Below, in pieces: positions 34,294 to 42,149 of a DNA stretch of 64,000 nucleotides (position 1 is its first letter; every line of letters begins with the position of its first letter). The notes under the pieces were generated by a model. The model searched no databases. It was not told where the DNA came from and saw only the letters and a list, made by a program, of their open reading frames with translations. Source of the DNA: Erysipelotrichaceae bacterium (lineage in GTDB: Bacteria > Bacillota_I > Bacilli_A > Erysipelotrichales > Erysipelotrichaceae); the NCBI GenBank assembly GCA_017404205.1, contig JAFRCV010000002.1:1-64000 (forward strand), read 5' to 3'. Position numbers and translations under genes: made by a program.

Positions 34294-36129
34294 TTATTTC
34301 CAAAAATCAGTTAAAGTTATGTCATCGCTTTTTGGTCTCACTATTTCCTCTTTATCAACTTTAACCAGAACAGGAACGTTTATTGCTGATCCCGTTATTA
34401 TGCATTCTCCTTGACCTAATGATGGTATTTTTGAATATGAAAATCTATCTAAAGTTGGCATGGTGTTATTTAATGCTATTAAATCTTTTTCATTTACTAT
34501 TCTATGTATAAGGTAATTATGGATTTGCGAAATAATAGTTGAAGAAATATCATAAGGCCTTTGACTACAAATTGTTAAATAAAAACCAAATTTTCTTCCC
34601 TCTTTTATCATTTCTTCAAACACCGAAAGTCGATAGTCTCTCCAATCATCTCCGACATCTTGGTGTTGAGAGTTTAATATATTGTGTGCTTCATCTATTA
34701 TTAAATGTTTTGTTCTTATAATACTCTCGTTTTTAGATACTTCATCCTTTTGATCATCATATATCATCTTTGAAAAAAGCATCGGAACCAAGCGAGTAAT
34801 TTCTTGATTCGCGTTAACTAAAGTAATAACATTCATCATTTTGTAATTTTCATTTGGCTTTTCGTTTATTTCTATCACTTTTTCTAACGAAACAATAGAA
34901 GATTCTATTCTTTTAAATAAAGGATTAATATGTTGAAGATTTGTGGATTTCCATGCTGAAACATATACTTTTTGAAATTCTAAAAAATACCTCAATTTAT
35001 TAATATCGTTTGTTTTTTCATATATATTTTCTAATTCATTTTTTATTTTATCTAGTCTTAGTGTTTCTCTACCTTCCTCGGTAATTTGTTCTCCTTCAAC
35101 AATCAAAGTACCATTATTTCTAATTTCTAACTGTCCGTATTGTAAATAGAAATGAAGCTTAATGTTTTCCAACAATTCTTCATTAACTCCTATTAAATTA
35201 GCAGCTTGACACCAATTGTCTATACTATCAGATGCTACACTTCTATGCCCGGTAATTAGCTTTTCTAGCAAACCAACTTCTAGTTTCGAAAACTGTTCCG
35301 CATTTTTTATCTCGTTAAACCTTTTTATTGCAGTTCTTAAGAATGGAACTTGTGTTGCTGGCCTCGCATCAAATAATATAGATAAGATGTCTGGATCAAA
35401 AAGATATTCTTTTTTGACTTTTAATTTATTTCCTTTTTTCGGAAATTTTGTGTTTATATTTATTACATTTATATCTTCGTTGTCTAGTCCGAATTGATTG
35501 ATGTTTGTATATTCACCATTAAAATCTATTAGAAAAAATTTTGATTTCTCTCTTATTTTTTCTTTAAAACAGCTTTTAAACAATTCAAGATACAATTTAT
35601 GTAGGGTATTAGATTTTCCGCTTCCCGTGTTCCCAAATATACCTATATGTGATGAAAAAAATCCATTAATTGGTATATTAACTGGATAGTCTTCTAAAAT
35701 AGATTTTCCAATTGTAATAAATGGTTCCTTACTTAGTATCCCATATATTTGGTTTAATTCTTGTCTTGTTGTTAAGCTGACTTTGTTTCCAATCATAGGA
35801 ACATATCTGCTAGTTACTGTAAAGGAGCCTTCTTCAATTACTCCTTTTACTTTTAGAGACACCAGTTTTCTAATTGTTTCCTTTTGGTATGTATTATCAA
35901 ACACCATTGAATTAAAACTATTTTGTTCATCAGTCACTTTTTCTGAATAAACAGTTGTGATTATTTTAATGTCGTTTTGATTGATTGTTAAAAATGCACC
36001 TACTTTTGGGCCGGTTAATAAGTCACCATTCCAAATAAAATCACTGTCATTTGTGTTATTATACATTCCAACTTTTGCAACATCTCCATCAACCTCAACT
36101 ATTACACCTATTATTTTTTGTTTATTCAC
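34294..36129 (-). CDS. HerA-like ATPase of a SIR2-HerA defence system
   Basis: 611 residues. An N-terminal HAS-barrel-like domain (about 1-150) precedes Walker A IFGNTGSGKSNTLHKL (166-173 core) and Walker B KHLIIDEAHNILN. Sensor and arginine-finger regions follow (TICSQRPYDISSTI, LIHRIVNEKDL), as in FtsK/HerA motors. It begins with GTG inside the SIR2 gene's last codons, a fixed two-gene unit. In characterised SIR2-HerA systems the ATPase forms a ring with SIR2 and phage infection triggers NAD+ loss or DNA cleavage. Confidence 0.88.
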   Translation of the reverse strand: MNKQKIIGVIVEVDGDVAKVGMYNNTNDSDFIWNGDLLTGPKVGAFLTINQNDIKIITTVYSEKVTDEQNSFNSMVFDNTYQKETIRKLVSLKVKGVIEEGSFTVTSRYVPMIGNKVSLTTRQELNQIYGILSKEPFITIGKSILEDYPVNIPINGFFSSHIGIFGNTGSGKSNTLHKLYLELFKSCFKEKIREKSKFFLIDFNGEYTNINQFGLDNEDINVININTKFPKKGNKLKVKKEYLFDPDILSILFDARPATQVPFLRTAIKRFNEIKNAEQFSKLEVGLLEKLITGHRSVASDSIDNWCQAANLIGVNEELLENIKLHFYLQYGQLEIRNNGTLIVEGEQITEEGRETLRLDKIKNELENIYEKTNDINKLRYFLEFQKVYVSAWKSTNLQHINPLFKRIESSIVSLEKVIEINEKPNENYKMMNVITLVNANQEITRLVPMLFSKMIYDDQKDEVSKNESIIRTKHLIIDEAHNILNSQHQDVGDDWRDYRLSVFEEMIKEGRKFGFYLTICSQRPYDISSTIISQIHNYLIHRIVNEKDLIALNNTMPTLDRFSYSKIPSLGQGECIITGSAINVPVLVKVDKEEIVRPKSDDITLTDFWK

Positions 36130-37078
36130 AATCAGTCTCCTTATTGTTGAGAATTAATTCAGTGAGATTAGCAATGATAAATTCTTTAATCTTTTCTCCA
36201 TCATTGGTATCTATTTCTGATGGAACAACAACCATTAAGTTGTTTTGATTATTAGGAACATCTAGGTTTTCATAAATTCGATCTTTCTCTGTTTTGCCAT
36301 CTTTGTCAGTTTTTTCATCATGGCAAAAGACAATTACTAATAATTCGGGATTTTTTAAAGCTCTTTTAACCATGGCTGCAATATGAGAATCTTGAAAAGA
36401 AAAACCAATAACTATCAACAAGGATTGTTGCTTATCTAGTTCAAATTGAAAAAGTCTAAGCATATTGTGAAAGTGATCGTTTATAAATGTTTCTGAATTT
36501 TCAACTCCAGTAGGAGGAACACCTACAAAGTTATCGGATACTTCGTTTTTTACAATAATGTGATTACCATTTCTTTCCCAATTAACTGACCCGTGGGGCT
36601 TAAATAAATTAATTGTCACTATTTCATCCAGGAAATTATCATTTAAGCCTTTATATGAAGTAGTTTTATTATAGTTAGAACTGTCTAATGTTCTTACAAA
36701 ATATCCATTTGCACCATCATTGAAAACAAATCTTTTATTATTCAAAAGACTATCTACAGATTTTTCTACAAACAAATCATAGTTAGTTGTGAATAAATTT
36801 ACTGCTTTTGGTGATTGTCTTGAATTGGACTGTTCTATTGAATCAATCATAACAGAAATAAAATCAACATAATTTTTTAATGTTTTTTTAATTGTTTCAT
36901 CATACTTGTTTTCTATTAGCTCCCTTGATACCTTTTTAACATCATCAAATAATTCGTTGTTATCCTTATAATCGCTCATAAATTTGATTGAAGGGTAAGA
37001 TACTCCTGAGCCCATCAAGATATTAACTCTTTTTGAAAAAATAAGATTTTTGAGAAATTTGCTATTAATAACAATCAC
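36122..37078 (-). CDS. SIR2-like NADase of a SIR2-HerA defence system
   Basis: About 315 residues with SIR2_2 motifs: NILMGSGVSYPSIKF (NAD loop), LFTTNYDLFVEKSVD, LFKPHGSVNWERNG (catalytic His in PHGS) and VIGFSFQDSHIAAMV. It should hydrolyse NAD+ when triggered, causing growth arrest. No ATG start exists: GTG at 37078 overlaps the AGGAGG Shine-Dalgarno, while an ATT at 37069 has ideal 8-nt spacing, so initiation is non-standard and probably weak. It overlaps herA by 8 nt. Confidence 0.88.
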   Translation of the reverse strand: MIVINSKFLKNLIFSKRVNILMGSGVSYPSIKFMSDYKDNNELFDDVKKVSRELIENKYDETIKKTLKNYVDFISVMIDSIEQSNSRQSPKAVNLFTTNYDLFVEKSVDSLLNNKRFVFNDGANGYFVRTLDSSNYNKTTSYKGLNDNFLDEIVTINLFKPHGSVNWERNGNHIIVKNEVSDNFVGVPPTGVENSETFINDHFHNMLRLFQFELDKQQSLLIVIGFSFQDSHIAAMVKRALKNPELLVIVFCHDEKTDKDGKTEKDRIYENLDVPNNQNNLMVVVPSEIDTNDGEKIKEFIIANLTELILNNKETDCE

Positions 37079-38127: not shown

Positions 38128-39441
38128 ATGGAAAAAATTTATGGTTTTGCAACATTAAACAATACTAGTTGCCCTTTCACATATGAAGATGGAGTGGCAA
38201 CTTTTTATGCTGGTGTAAATGGCGTTCCGCTTCCAGAAAATGGTATTCATGATTTTATCGCTGTAGACTATAGCAACAAACAATATTATTTTCATTTGTC
38301 GTTGCCAATCACTTGGACAGGATATGTGATGATTGATGGAGAAGGCAAATCACAAGAATATATAAATTTTATTTATGGTGTTGACATCGACTATTATATT
38401 GAGGATTACAAACGCAATGCTCAATATTCACGATTGGATTTTAGATTCCCTGAACTTGATTATTTTATTCCATCAAAAACTTCAATTGAGGATTTGCAAA
38501 ATTGTACCTTCAAGGGCAAATACTATTCCTATTTTGATGAAGATTTTGCTTATTTAGAATCTACAATTAAGTTTAAACTTTTCACTGAAACTCATATTAA
38601 TAAAAGCATTTCTTTTAATATGCACACCGAATCCGTATTGCGTTTGTTGTTTGATGAAACTACAGATTTAAAATATGTTGTGAAACTATATAACAAGGTT
38701 GTTAATTTGTTTTCATTTATTTGTAACAGAAGAAATGTTTCTGTTGAGTCAGCAGTGTTAAATGACAAAAGTATTCTACATTGCAATAATAGGTTTGTTG
38801 AACCTTTTGAAGATGAAAATATTATTAAAAAAACTTTACCATTTAGATATTTAGAAAAAGGTTTTAGTGAACTCTTTAAATTAATTCTCAGTGATGAAAT
38901 ATCAATAAATAATATTCATTCTTCCGAAAAGAAAAAACACTTAATTGATTTAGAATATAGTCTTAGTGTTACCTCATCTTTTGAAAATTACTCAAGAAAA
39001 TGGCTACCAGAAATATCGTCTGATACTACTATTCAATGCTATAAAGAAGCTTATGATTTAATAAGCAATTATTCGCAAGAATTTACAGGCAAAAAGAAAA
39101 ATAAATTTAACCAAATTTTAAGATATTTAAATAGTCCTGAGATAAGCTTGTCTACAAAAATAATAAAAATATATTCCGGTTATAACGGTTGGGGTGGTTG
39201 TAAAGAGTATTTATCTAATTATTTTGGCGATGATATAGTCGCACTTGCTGAAAATGTAAATGAATGGCGAAATGAACTCGCTCACAACAAAAACGAATAC
39301 GCTCCTGTAAGAGAAACAATAGACGGAATATTGCTTCTTGATATCATGAATTATTGTTTAATTCTATATAAATGTGGATATTCAAAAGAAATTATTCAAT
39401 TAATTGTTGAAAAAGTTTTTAAATTAAGTAAACGGCATTAA
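38128..39441 (+). CDS. ApeA-like HEPN ribonuclease candidate
   Basis: 437 residues. The N-terminal 230 residues are beta-rich (YGFATLNNTSCPFTYEDGVA, HFHLSLPITWTG-like) as in ApeA N-terminal domains. The C-terminal 120 are helical and hold the HEPN signature RNELAH (R381-X4-H386) after NVNEWRN, with LLLDIMNYCLILYKCGY. HEPN RNases of this type cut tRNA or other RNA during abortive infection. It starts 2 nt after the HTH gene stop, without its own SD. Assignment to ApeA-like is by pattern only. Confidence 0.65.
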   Translation: MEKIYGFATLNNTSCPFTYEDGVATFYAGVNGVPLPENGIHDFIAVDYSNKQYYFHLSLPITWTGYVMIDGEGKSQEYINFIYGVDIDYYIEDYKRNAQYSRLDFRFPELDYFIPSKTSIEDLQNCTFKGKYYSYFDEDFAYLESTIKFKLFTETHINKSISFNMHTESVLRLLFDETTDLKYVVKLYNKVVNLFSFICNRRNVSVESAVLNDKSILHCNNRFVEPFEDENIIKKTLPFRYLEKGFSELFKLILSDEISINNIHSSEKKKHLIDLEYSLSVTSSFENYSRKWLPEISSDTTIQCYKEAYDLISNYSQEFTGKKKNKFNQILRYLNSPEISLSTKIIKIYSGYNGWGGCKEYLSNYFGDDIVALAENVNEWRNELAHNKNEYAPVRETIDGILLLDIMNYCLILYKCGYSKEIIQLIVEKVFKLSKRH

Positions 39442-39462: not shown

Positions 39463-39486
39463 AATGTCCGTTTGAATGTCCGTTTA
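39463..39486 (+). repeat. two 12-bp repeats in the promoter of the AlbA_2 gene
   Basis: AATGTCCGTTTG then AATGTCCGTTTA, directly adjacent, ending 16 nt before the TATACT -10 and so covering the -35 position. A nearly inverted copy TAAACGG-CATT lies at 39429-39439. The same 12-mer occurs three times inside the gene at 40625-40660. Confidence 0.85.
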
Positions 39487-39502
39487 TCTTTTTTTTATGT
39501 GA

Positions 39503-39508
39503 TATACT
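39503..39508 (+). promoter_or_regulatory. -10 box of a probable leaderless promoter
   Basis: TATACT ends 6 nt before the ATG at 39515; no SD is present. The two 12-bp repeats occupy the -35 area. Confidence 0.6.
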
Positions 39509-39514
39509 AATAGC

Positions 39515-40843
39515 ATGAAAAAAGTAAAATATATTGAATCAGAATCTATTGAATTAAAAAGCAAAATAAGCGATTCCTTACAAAAAGATATCGTCGCATT
39601 TTTAAATTGCTCCGGTGGAAAAATATATGTTGGTGTTGATGATAATGGGAATGTGACTGGAATTAACAACATAGATAGCACGCTAAAAGAAATTGCAGAT
39701 ATTATTTCTACCGCTATTCTTCCAAATCCATCATCTTCTATAAGAAGCCATGTTTTAACTATGGACAATAAAAACATCATAGAGATAGAAATAAGCAAAG
39801 GGATAAAATCTCTTTATTATTTAAAGAAATATGGTCTTTCACCAAAAGGCTGTTTATTACGTGTCGGTACAACTTGTAGAGAAATGGAAGAAAACGAGAT
39901 TGAAAAAAGATATAAATTAAATCTTCATCAAAACGATTATTTAGTTGATACAGAATCTTATATGAATACATTAAGTTTTACTACTTTTAAAGTGTATATG
40001 ACAGAAAAAGGTTTTCATATAGATGATGCTACATTTGAATCTAATTTCAAATTTAGAACGAGTAACGGCAGATACAATTATCTAGCAGAACTTATGTCTG
40101 ATAACAACACAATCCCTTTTATAGTTGCAAGATTCCAAGGGATTGATAAAGCCACTATTAATGAAAAAACAGATTACGGATCTAGGTGCGTTCTTTCTAC
40201 AGTTGAAAGAGTATTAGCTAGAATGGATTCTGAAAACATCGTTTATTCTGATACTTCTGTTAGACCAAGAAAAGATAAAAAATTAATGGATGATTTTTCT
40301 TTGAAAGAGGCTATCATCAATGCTTTTGTTCACAACGATTGGTCTATATCTCAACCAGCTATTTATATCTATGATGATAGAGTTGAGATAATTTCTTATG
40401 GTGGTTTGCCTGTTGGTGAAACAATTGAGGATTTTTATACCGGTATTAGTCATCCAAGAAGCGATAGCTTAATGCGAATATTTTTAAACGTTGATTTAGT
40501 TGAACATACAGGACACGGTGTTCCTAATATTGTTAAAAGGTATGGCAAGGAATGCTTTAAAATCACCGATAATTACATATTAACAACTATACCGTTTGAT
40601 AAAGAAGTTATGGATAATTGCAAAAATGTCCGTTTGAATGTCCGTTTGAATGTCCGTTTGAATGATACCCAAAAACAGATATTAAAATTATTAAAAGAAA
40701 ATCCAAAATATACTGCTTTAGATTTATCAGAAAAATTGAATTTAACAAAAAAGACGATAGAAAGAAATTTTAAATTATTAAAAGAAAACAATATAATTCA
40801 ACGTGGTGGTTCAAAGCGCGATGGATATTGGATTGTTTTATAA
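39515..40843 (+). CDS. AlbA_2/Schlafen-type regulator with GHKL-like and winged-helix domains
   Basis: 442 residues: AlbA_2 domain (about 8-135: ESIELKSKISDSLQKDIVAFLNCSGGKIYVGVDD), a HATPase_c_4-type ATP-binding part (SLKEAIINAFVHNDWSI with the catalytic-box Asn, IISYGGLPVG, VEHTGHGVPNIVKRY), then the linker N-V-R-L repeated three times and a C-terminal winged helix (QKQILKLLKENPKYTALDLS). The family is widespread and often placed beside defence genes; its role is unsettled. The linker DNA matches the repeats in its own promoter. Confidence 0.8.
   Translation: MKKVKYIESESIELKSKISDSLQKDIVAFLNCSGGKIYVGVDDNGNVTGINNIDSTLKEIADIISTAILPNPSSSIRSHVLTMDNKNIIEIEISKGIKSLYYLKKYGLSPKGCLLRVGTTCREMEENEIEKRYKLNLHQNDYLVDTESYMNTLSFTTFKVYMTEKGFHIDDATFESNFKFRTSNGRYNYLAELMSDNNTIPFIVARFQGIDKATINEKTDYGSRCVLSTVERVLARMDSENIVYSDTSVRPRKDKKLMDDFSLKEAIINAFVHNDWSISQPAIYIYDDRVEIISYGGLPVGETIEDFYTGISHPRSDSLMRIFLNVDLVEHTGHGVPNIVKRYGKECFKITDNYILTTIPFDKEVMDNCKNVRLNVRLNVRLNDTQKQILKLLKENPKYTALDLSEKLNLTKKTIERNFKLLKENNIIQRGGSKRDGYWIVL
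40625..40660 (+). repeat. three 12-bp repeats encoding the N-V-R-L linker
   Basis: AATGTCCGTTTG three times in tandem, with a partial fourth (AATG). Each gives Asn-Val-Arg-Leu. Identical to the repeats at 39463-39486 in the gene's promoter. Confidence 0.9.
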
Positions 40844-40872: not shown

Positions 40873-42149
40873 ATGCGCGTTGATATAAAAGGCGGAAATG
40901 GCAATATTGTATTTGATGAAAAAAACGCAGAAGCAACCAAATACCTAAGAAACACATCTTCAAAAGAAAAAATAATTCGTTTCAAAAAAGAAATTGAAAT
41001 ACTTCAAGAATTATCTAAATCATCGATTTCAAATATTGTGGAGGTACATAGTGTTAACATTGATGATAATGTTAGCAAGTGCTTTATAACAATGAAAAAT
41101 ATGATGGGAATCTTTATGATTTGTTGTCCAGAACAAAAGGCAATTTAAAATTTACAATTGCCATACTTCTTCCAATTGTAGAAACATTAAATACATTAGC
41201 AACAAGAGATGTTCCAATTTATCATAGAGATATAAAGCCAGACAATATTCTATATGAATATACTGATGGCAAAATCACTCTATTTTTAGCAGATTTTGGA
41301 TTGTGTTATCTAAAAGATGATAACGAACGATTGACAGAAGAAATCACCGCCATAGGACCCAGAATGTTTATAGCACCAGAATACGAGAAAGGCAAAGTAG
41401 AAGATGTAGATGAAAAAGGTGATATTTTCTCAATTGGCAAATTATTGTGGTTTATGATTAATGGAAACACCAATGAATATTTACCTTCTAATTTTTGGTT
41501 TTTAGATGAATATAATTTATCAAAAAAATTCAATTCTGATTGCGAAATGATAAAAGCAAATATTATTATTTCTTCATGCCTATCTAGCATACCTAGTGAA
41601 CGTAATAATTATGGCCAATTGATAACCAAAATGACTGAAGTTTTAAATGACAACATTGTAAGTGACAAAGTGCTTAAAACAAAAGAATATGAAGAGAAAA
41701 GAAAACTTGAACTTTTAGAAATAAAAGAGCAAAACAAATTATTAGTTAATTATTTCAGCATCGAGTATTTGGCTGTTCTTAAATTACTGATAGAAAAATA
41801 TAATAATTTTGATATGTTGGTTTATTTTTATAATCAATATGAATCAAAAAGAAATATAAATAATAATTTTGTAACATCTAACGTTGATAAAAACATTGAA
41901 TCTTACTTGTATTCGGGCACGTTCGACAGAATTTATATATCAATAAAATATCATAGAGCTAATGACACTGATAAATATTGTAATATTTCATTAGATTATT
42001 CGATTTCTAATGGAAAAAACGACAGTGTTAAATTTTATTATGATTCAAACAAAAATGTTTTTATAAAAACAAACGAATATAATTGTCCGTATGACAGAAA
42101 GTTCTTTTTTGAGCTTATTGAAAAGATGATTGAGAATTATATATCTTAA
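40873..42149 (+). pseudogene. serine/threonine protein kinase split by a frameshift
   Basis: Frame 1 (40873-41148) begins MRVDIKGGNGNIVFDEKNAE and contains the N-lobe with the Lys/Glu helix. After CFITMK it loses frame. Frame 2 continues YDGNLYDLLSRTKGNL, YHRDIKPDNILYEY (catalytic loop), FLADFGLCYLKDD (DFG), MFIAPEYEKGKVEDVDEKGDIFSIGKLL (APE-like). One missing A in the run at 41095-41099 (A5 instead of A6) explains the break. About 425 residues if restored, with a C-terminal domain of unknown type. Sequencing error or slippage-based on/off switching are alternatives to true loss. Confidence 0.75.

Follow-up and report, generated by a model that had tools for sequence, protein, structure and literature searches.

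One 12-bp repeat, AATGTCCGTTTG, occurs both in the promoter of a single gene of an Erysipelotrichaceae bacterium and within that gene, in a stretch of 64,000 nucleotides that was analysed as a whole and is referred to here as the window. The gene encodes a Schlafen-AlbA_2/HATPase_c_4/winged-helix protein, and the intragenic copies of the repeat code for the linker leading into its winged helix. We consider it probable that the repeats serve as operator iterons read by the winged helix of the protein itself, placed in the promoter and used again as the code of a disordered linker; binding is inferred, as are the sign of regulation and what the intragenic copies do. Autoregulation by the protein is likely, in the absence of binding or expression data.

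The sequence-only reading of this DNA had placed two adjacent copies of the repeat over the -35 position, three in tandem within the gene encoding an N-V-R-L linker, and a near-inverted copy further upstream. Both arrays are found as described, with the first promoter copy exact, the second differing in its last base, and the intragenic copies, 1.16 kb downstream of the promoter copies, exact and in frame, each unit being read as AAT GTC CGT TTG (Table 1). The reference to -35 is loose, as the copies, though real, are better described as sitting upstream of a predicted extended -10; and the near-inverted copy is present but weak, one base short and overlapping the upstream gene, and it may have arisen by chance. 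The promoter copies are non-coding, because the upstream gene ends at 39441 and the reading frame is open for just four codons above the ATG at 39515. From the putative -10 the transcription start is predicted at about 39514-39516, and the mRNA of the window gene would therefore be nearly leaderless. The longest stretch shared by promoter and gene is 23 bp; when the 73-bp promoter region was shuffled 1000 times with its dinucleotides preserved, the longest match to the gene reached 16 bp. The 11-mer AATGTCCGTTT is observed five times in the 1.62 Mb genome, all of them at the promoter and linker sites of this gene.

Table 1. Features of the window gene (positions in the window) and motif classes of the repeat in homologs (loci)
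Feature	Position or loci	Strand	Basis or remarks
Putative promoter iteron 1, AATGTCCGTTTG	39463..39474	+	at -52; 11-mer unique to window gene in genome
Putative promoter iteron 2, AATGTCCGTTTA (AATGTCCGTTTG with last base changed to A)	39475..39486	+	sequence
Putative intragenic iteron array, exact tandem 3 x AATGTCCGTTTG	40625..40660	+	linker (N-V-R-L)x3, residues 371-382
Degenerate inverted copy, AATGCCGTTT on minus strand / AAACGGCATT	39430..39439	-	one base short; overlaps 3' end of upstream gene
Predicted extended -10, TGaTATACT	39500..39508	+	read by eye; absent from consensus-scan list; inference
442-aa Schlafen-AlbA_2 / HATPase_c_4 / winged-helix protein, predicted COG2865-kind transcriptional regulator	39515..40843	+	Pfam matches
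SLFN_AlbA_2 (PF04326), residues 8-125	39536..39889	+	Pfam, alignments
HATPase_c_4 (PF13749), residues 280-345	40352..40549	+	Pfam
Winged helix, HTH_24 (PF13412), residues 382-429	40658..40801	+	Pfam, structure; recognition helix region ..TKKTIER..
TGTCGGTTTGAA and spacer variants	L047-L052, L151-L189
TGTCCGTTTGAA	window gene
TGGCGGTATTAA	L186
GTGGGTGATAAA	L036, L037, L065, L066
GTGGGGGATAAA	L013
GTTGGGAATAAA	L067, L219
GTTGGTAATAAA	L068, L071-L073
TTGGTAGATAAA	L084, L087
GTATACAATAAA	L075, L080, L010
AACAACCAGAAA	L131, L136, L138, L139
AATGGCACAATAA	L146
GACTCTATAAAT	L147
TGTCCAGATAA	L145, L148
GGCGYAATAA	L056, L057
GATACTGTAAGT	L043

The encoded protein has the COG2865-like order of AlbA_2, HATPase_c_4 and C-terminal HTH, with Pfam matches that exceed the curated cut-offs. 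The domains are confidently placed in an AlphaFold model (mean pLDDT 84.9), and the repeat linker, whose residues 371-380 fall below a pLDDT of 50, is predicted to be disordered. Among solved structures the nearest are DIP2311 (3lmm) and the human Schlafens, and for the C-terminus MarR-type winged helices. Of the acidic residues (E, E, D) expected in a Schlafen RNase active site, E8 and E13 are invariant in alignments; the third would correspond to D42/D43 by alignment with SLFN11, but most close relatives have K at 42. A Schlafen-type RNase activity is inferred, there being no activity data.

About 190 homologs, some of them redundant, were collected from the family, order and phylum of the window and from named genomes, which include Treponema, Peptoniphilus, Lachnospiraceae, Erysipelotrichaceae and metagenome bins labelled Victivallales and Bacteroidales; a first alignment of homologs was too diverse for pattern scans. 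Many have tetrapeptide repeats of differing sequence in the same linker, and in about a dozen motif classes the DNA of a gene's own linker recurs in its own promoter, the longest identical stretch being 37 bp (L182). The sequence-only reading would have been refuted had homologs with other linker repeats lacked matching promoter repeats; the outcome was the opposite, which supports that reading. A GNK-type member also lies on a viral contig (IMGVR_UViG_2882674194; L219 / L221), with two inverted TTGGGAATAAAG promoter copies and matching linker DNA. Scans of viral sequences for relatives yielded almost nothing, plasmid and phage records gave distant relatives only, and a search of genome contigs for close relatives of the window protein found none, so that there are no alleles in which copy number could be compared.

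The correspondence of promoter and linker is specific to the gene. Promoters match their own linkers better than swapped ones (z=14, 20000 permutations), and a score of at least 14 is reached by the own pairs of 32 of 104 non-redundant homologs, where about 1.05 would be expected from swapped, dissimilar linkers. Pairs of relatives that share no tree branch are positive in 17 cases, negative in six and tied in three (sign test p=0.035; Wilcoxon p=0.005), and some of the negative pairs are members that keep the promoter copy and have lost the linker copy (L203, L082). Where the best match to the promoter within a gene scores at least 14, it lies inside the linker in 15 genes and outside it in two. 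Spacers within the TGTCGGT class also co-vary, but this amounts to one or two changes on the tree, and because relatedness inflates its p-value (p<1e-4) we do not use it as main evidence.

The sequence-only reading had further argued that selection acts on the DNA or RNA itself, and the linker is indeed constrained at the DNA level. Synonymous reshuffling of the linker abolishes the match in the window gene (real score 23; shuffled 9.2 +- 1.4, maximum 15), and for 12 of 25 matching loci the real score is unreached by any of 300 synonymous shuffles. In 47 linkers of the NVGx type, Val is encoded by GTC in 130 of 145 positions (90%, compared with 14.5% elsewhere in the same genes), Gly by GGT in 125 of 132 (33.6% elsewhere) and Leu by TTG in 73 of 91 (20.6% elsewhere), and all three Arg codons of the window linker are CGT, a codon used for two of 19 Arg residues elsewhere in a gene whose usual choice is AGA. 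Promoter and linker motifs change together, to TGTCCGT in the window gene and to TGGCGGT in L186. The third base of the Gly codon in the GDK/GNK class follows the promoter copy, being G in L013, L067 and L219 (GGG) and T in L036, L037, L065, L066, L068 and L071 (GGT, with the promoter in step), and this switch is a synonymous co-change. Codon choice and the synonymous co-changes together indicate selection at the DNA level.

If the repeats are operators, they should be related to the part of the protein that reads DNA. Similarity of promoter motifs is correlated with winged-helix identity (partial rho 0.22, Mantel p<0.0005), an effect of modest size, and not with N-terminal identity (0.03, p=0.23); the N-terminus is the promoter's neighbour, yet the motif does not follow it. 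When promoters are compared with promoters the N-terminal term is small but non-zero (0.09, p=0.0035). Recognition helices sort into motif classes, ..KRTIER.. with TGTCGGT, GKTSID with GTGGGTGATAAA and SEPGIKK with GTATAC; a search for module swaps, in which the same winged helix is joined to a different N-terminus, found none. Of the three mechanisms that had been proposed from the sequence – an operator read by the gene's own winged helix, RNA autoregulation, and recombination or slippage between the arrays – the first is thus the best supported, though without binding data.

The site is also essentially private to its gene. In Treponema parvum, Peptoniphilus gorbachii and three further genomes (G648, G003, G056), exact 12-mers occur nowhere in the genome except in a single gene's promoter and linker; two of five matches lie elsewhere in Treponema vincentii, and one of four in Peptostreptococcus porci. 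This privacy argues for self-regulation rather than a regulon. A wider regulon is ruled out by the genome-wide counts at the level of exact 12-mers. A paralog in the window's own genome (L091, contig 13) has three different, GTGACAAATAAA-like promoter iterons and no linker copy; because these are quite unlike those of the window gene, paralogs in the same genome appear to have separate specificities.

The two arrays are not always found together. Tandem promoter repeats, mostly of period 12, are present at p<=0.05 in 65 of 127 genes, where about six would be expected, and by tandem criteria the same 127 divide into 35 with both arrays, 48 with a linker array only, 30 with a promoter array only and 14 with neither, genes with a single promoter copy being counted as linker only. 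Promoter tandem repeats without linker repeats are seen in L040, L045, L046, L061, L082, L106 and L110, and promoter iterons are kept with linker copies absent in L044, L082, L110 and L187. For linkers of the GTVN, GEIN, DTEN, NEHL and TTQE types a promoter match was looked for and none was found. Perfect or near-perfect linker arrays without a promoter partner (GTVN, GEIN, NEHL, NDTVENK and others) occur in L109, L112-L117, L119, L121, L127, L128, L130 and L132, and their DNA units are still iteron-like, for example GGCGAAATAAAT. With so many members having a single array, the intragenic copies cannot be essential everywhere; hence they are not always needed, or are retained for another reason.

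The placement of promoter copies varies among classes. In the GDK class a pair of inverted copies closely precedes the -10, and a direct copy covers the start region. Promoters of the TGTCGGT class have a tandem pair before the -35 and, in many cases, an additional core that falls between -35 and -10. Repression is favoured by sites placed around the -10, but the tandem sites of the TGTCGGT class could equally be compatible with activation, and the sign of regulation is inferred from site placement alone. The distance from promoter to linker was tested for helical phasing and showed none, leaving looping unsupported.

We propose that the two promoter copies are an operator for the protein's own winged helix, and that the three copies within the gene would double as code for a disordered linker tolerating almost any peptide. 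The protein would bind the promoter copies and control transcription of its gene, with repression the likeliest outcome, so that little is made of what may be a toxic RNase of the Schlafen type. The intragenic copies may be bound as a second operator cluster that strengthens repression, either as a block to elongation or through a bridge to the promoter. Should the winged helix shift in specificity, the promoter and linker copies would follow by selection, perhaps aided by copying between the arrays.

Such copying could also account for the linker copies without any function. The promoter would then hold a working operator and the linker copies would be passengers, moved in either direction by recombination, template switching or slippage, tolerated in a linker where any sequence will do and kept alike by ongoing copying. 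The order of variant units is mirrored between the arrays of L042, with TGGGTAATAAAGTkGGGGATAAA in both leader and linker, and of L171, with GGT followed by GGC in both promoter and linker, which suggests that DNA copying contributes; similarly, the 37-bp identity of L182 includes 5 bp beyond the array, and in L047 there are 14 matching bp outside it. The recombination proposed from the sequence is to this extent partially supported, and both the promoter arrays that lack a linker array and the range of linker copy number among relatives, from two to five, fit with passengers. However, linker codon choice is uniform across a class, motif similarity tracks the winged helix, and the inverted orientation in several classes is unlike a simple product of copying; we regard the passenger interpretation as unlikely, while not setting it aside.

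It is less plausible still that slippage or recombination between the arrays serves phase variation, altering linker length or promoter state. The units are in-frame 12-mers whose number varies among relatives, but there are no population data and no alleles of the window gene, and the gene itself would be lost if the arrays recombined directly. RNA autoregulation, with the repeat in the mRNA being bound or cut by the AlbA_2 domain, draws on the relationship of AlbA_2 domains to Schlafen RNases and on the GDK class, whose leader has a direct copy across the start and Shine-Dalgarno region in addition to the coding copy. The position of other copies speaks against it: both promoter copies of the window gene lie upstream of the predicted -10 and would be absent from the mRNA, and in the GDK, VDK and SNK classes the inverted copies, too, are upstream of a predicted -10. 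The motif, moreover, follows the winged helix and not the AlbA_2 part, and we consider RNA autoregulation very improbable. For the window gene it was rejected on predicted promoter geometry. Equally remote, and already unlikely for the window, is the idea that the promoter copy was left behind by the 3' end of a duplicated paralog upstream. The upstream match of L008/L043 does run on into winged-helix code, with a deletion, but nothing of the kind is seen in the window or at most loci, and neither the inverted copies nor the sites around the -10 agree with such an origin. In L008/L043 themselves the region from about -92 to -20 from the start is a relic of code for the linker and the beginning of the winged helix, with an internal deletion, and is of separate origin.

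The gene lies a short way downstream of a SIR2-HerA defence pair (34294-37078, minus strand; PADLOC SIR2 5e-121, HerA 9e-261). Immediately upstream, 38128-39441 encodes a 437-aa protein with no family match, whose C-terminal W-RNELAH-N resembles the HEPN R-x4-H motif; on this sequence likeness it is possibly a defence nuclease of the ApeA/HEPN type. Downstream, a PD-T4-6-like protein kinase (40873-42149) is seemingly split into overlapping frames (40873-41148 and 41079-42149), by what seems to be a frameshift or an assembly error.

In phage lambda the iterons code for the linker that joins the two halves of the O protein, and in the window gene, too, an interdomain linker is encoded by repeat DNA. 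Lambda O initiates replication, and its iterons form an origin. This origin inside gene O is the closest precedent, as an array of iterons bound by a protein and lying within that protein's gene (PMC4488673, PMC5043065). The window gene has putative iterons also in its own promoter and a chromosomal setting, and across its family the promoter and linker iterons diverge together. The tandem 12-bp coding repeats of EcoR124I HsdS (TAEL), whose copy number sets linker length, are like those of the window linker but have no promoter copy. MarR/ArsR-type autorepressors such as ZitR and AdcR match the winged-helix fold by sequence and structure, and they are not known to have an operator encoded in their own linker. 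Bacterial Schlafen-HATPase-wHTH proteins have been described near BREX systems, with a Schlafen/AlbA_2 domain, a minimal histidine-kinase-type ATPase and a wHTH (PMC12839542), a domain order that the window protein shares, also in a defence neighbourhood. TrlG of Photorhabdus, from an operon induced by temperature shift, has the same two N-terminal domains, AlbA_2 and HATPase_c_4 (PMC7554251). Both the domain architecture and an in-gene iteron array, that of lambda O, are thus known, and we found no description of promoter-linker identity in the Schlafen-HATPase-wHTH family in the literature searched, most subscription papers and preprints being outside its scope.

A more speculative role for the linker array, which we think rather unlikely but worth stating, is that of a heritable template, keeping the cognate operator beside the DNA-binding domain so that, after a change or exchange of the domain, the promoter is rewritten by copying from one array to the other; if so, the gene would be a self-contained, evolvable and orthogonal autoregulator. 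On the operator interpretation, the odd tetrapeptide repeats (NVGL, GDKV and others) in part of the family would be explained as DNA elements and not as peptide motifs, and, in a large family that has hardly been studied and is linked to phage defence, the predicted operator of a protein could be read directly from the DNA that codes for it. The family would thereby provide a natural data set of winged-helix/operator pairs from which rules of recognition might be learned, and would make the joint change of specificity in a DNA-binding protein and its site open to test.
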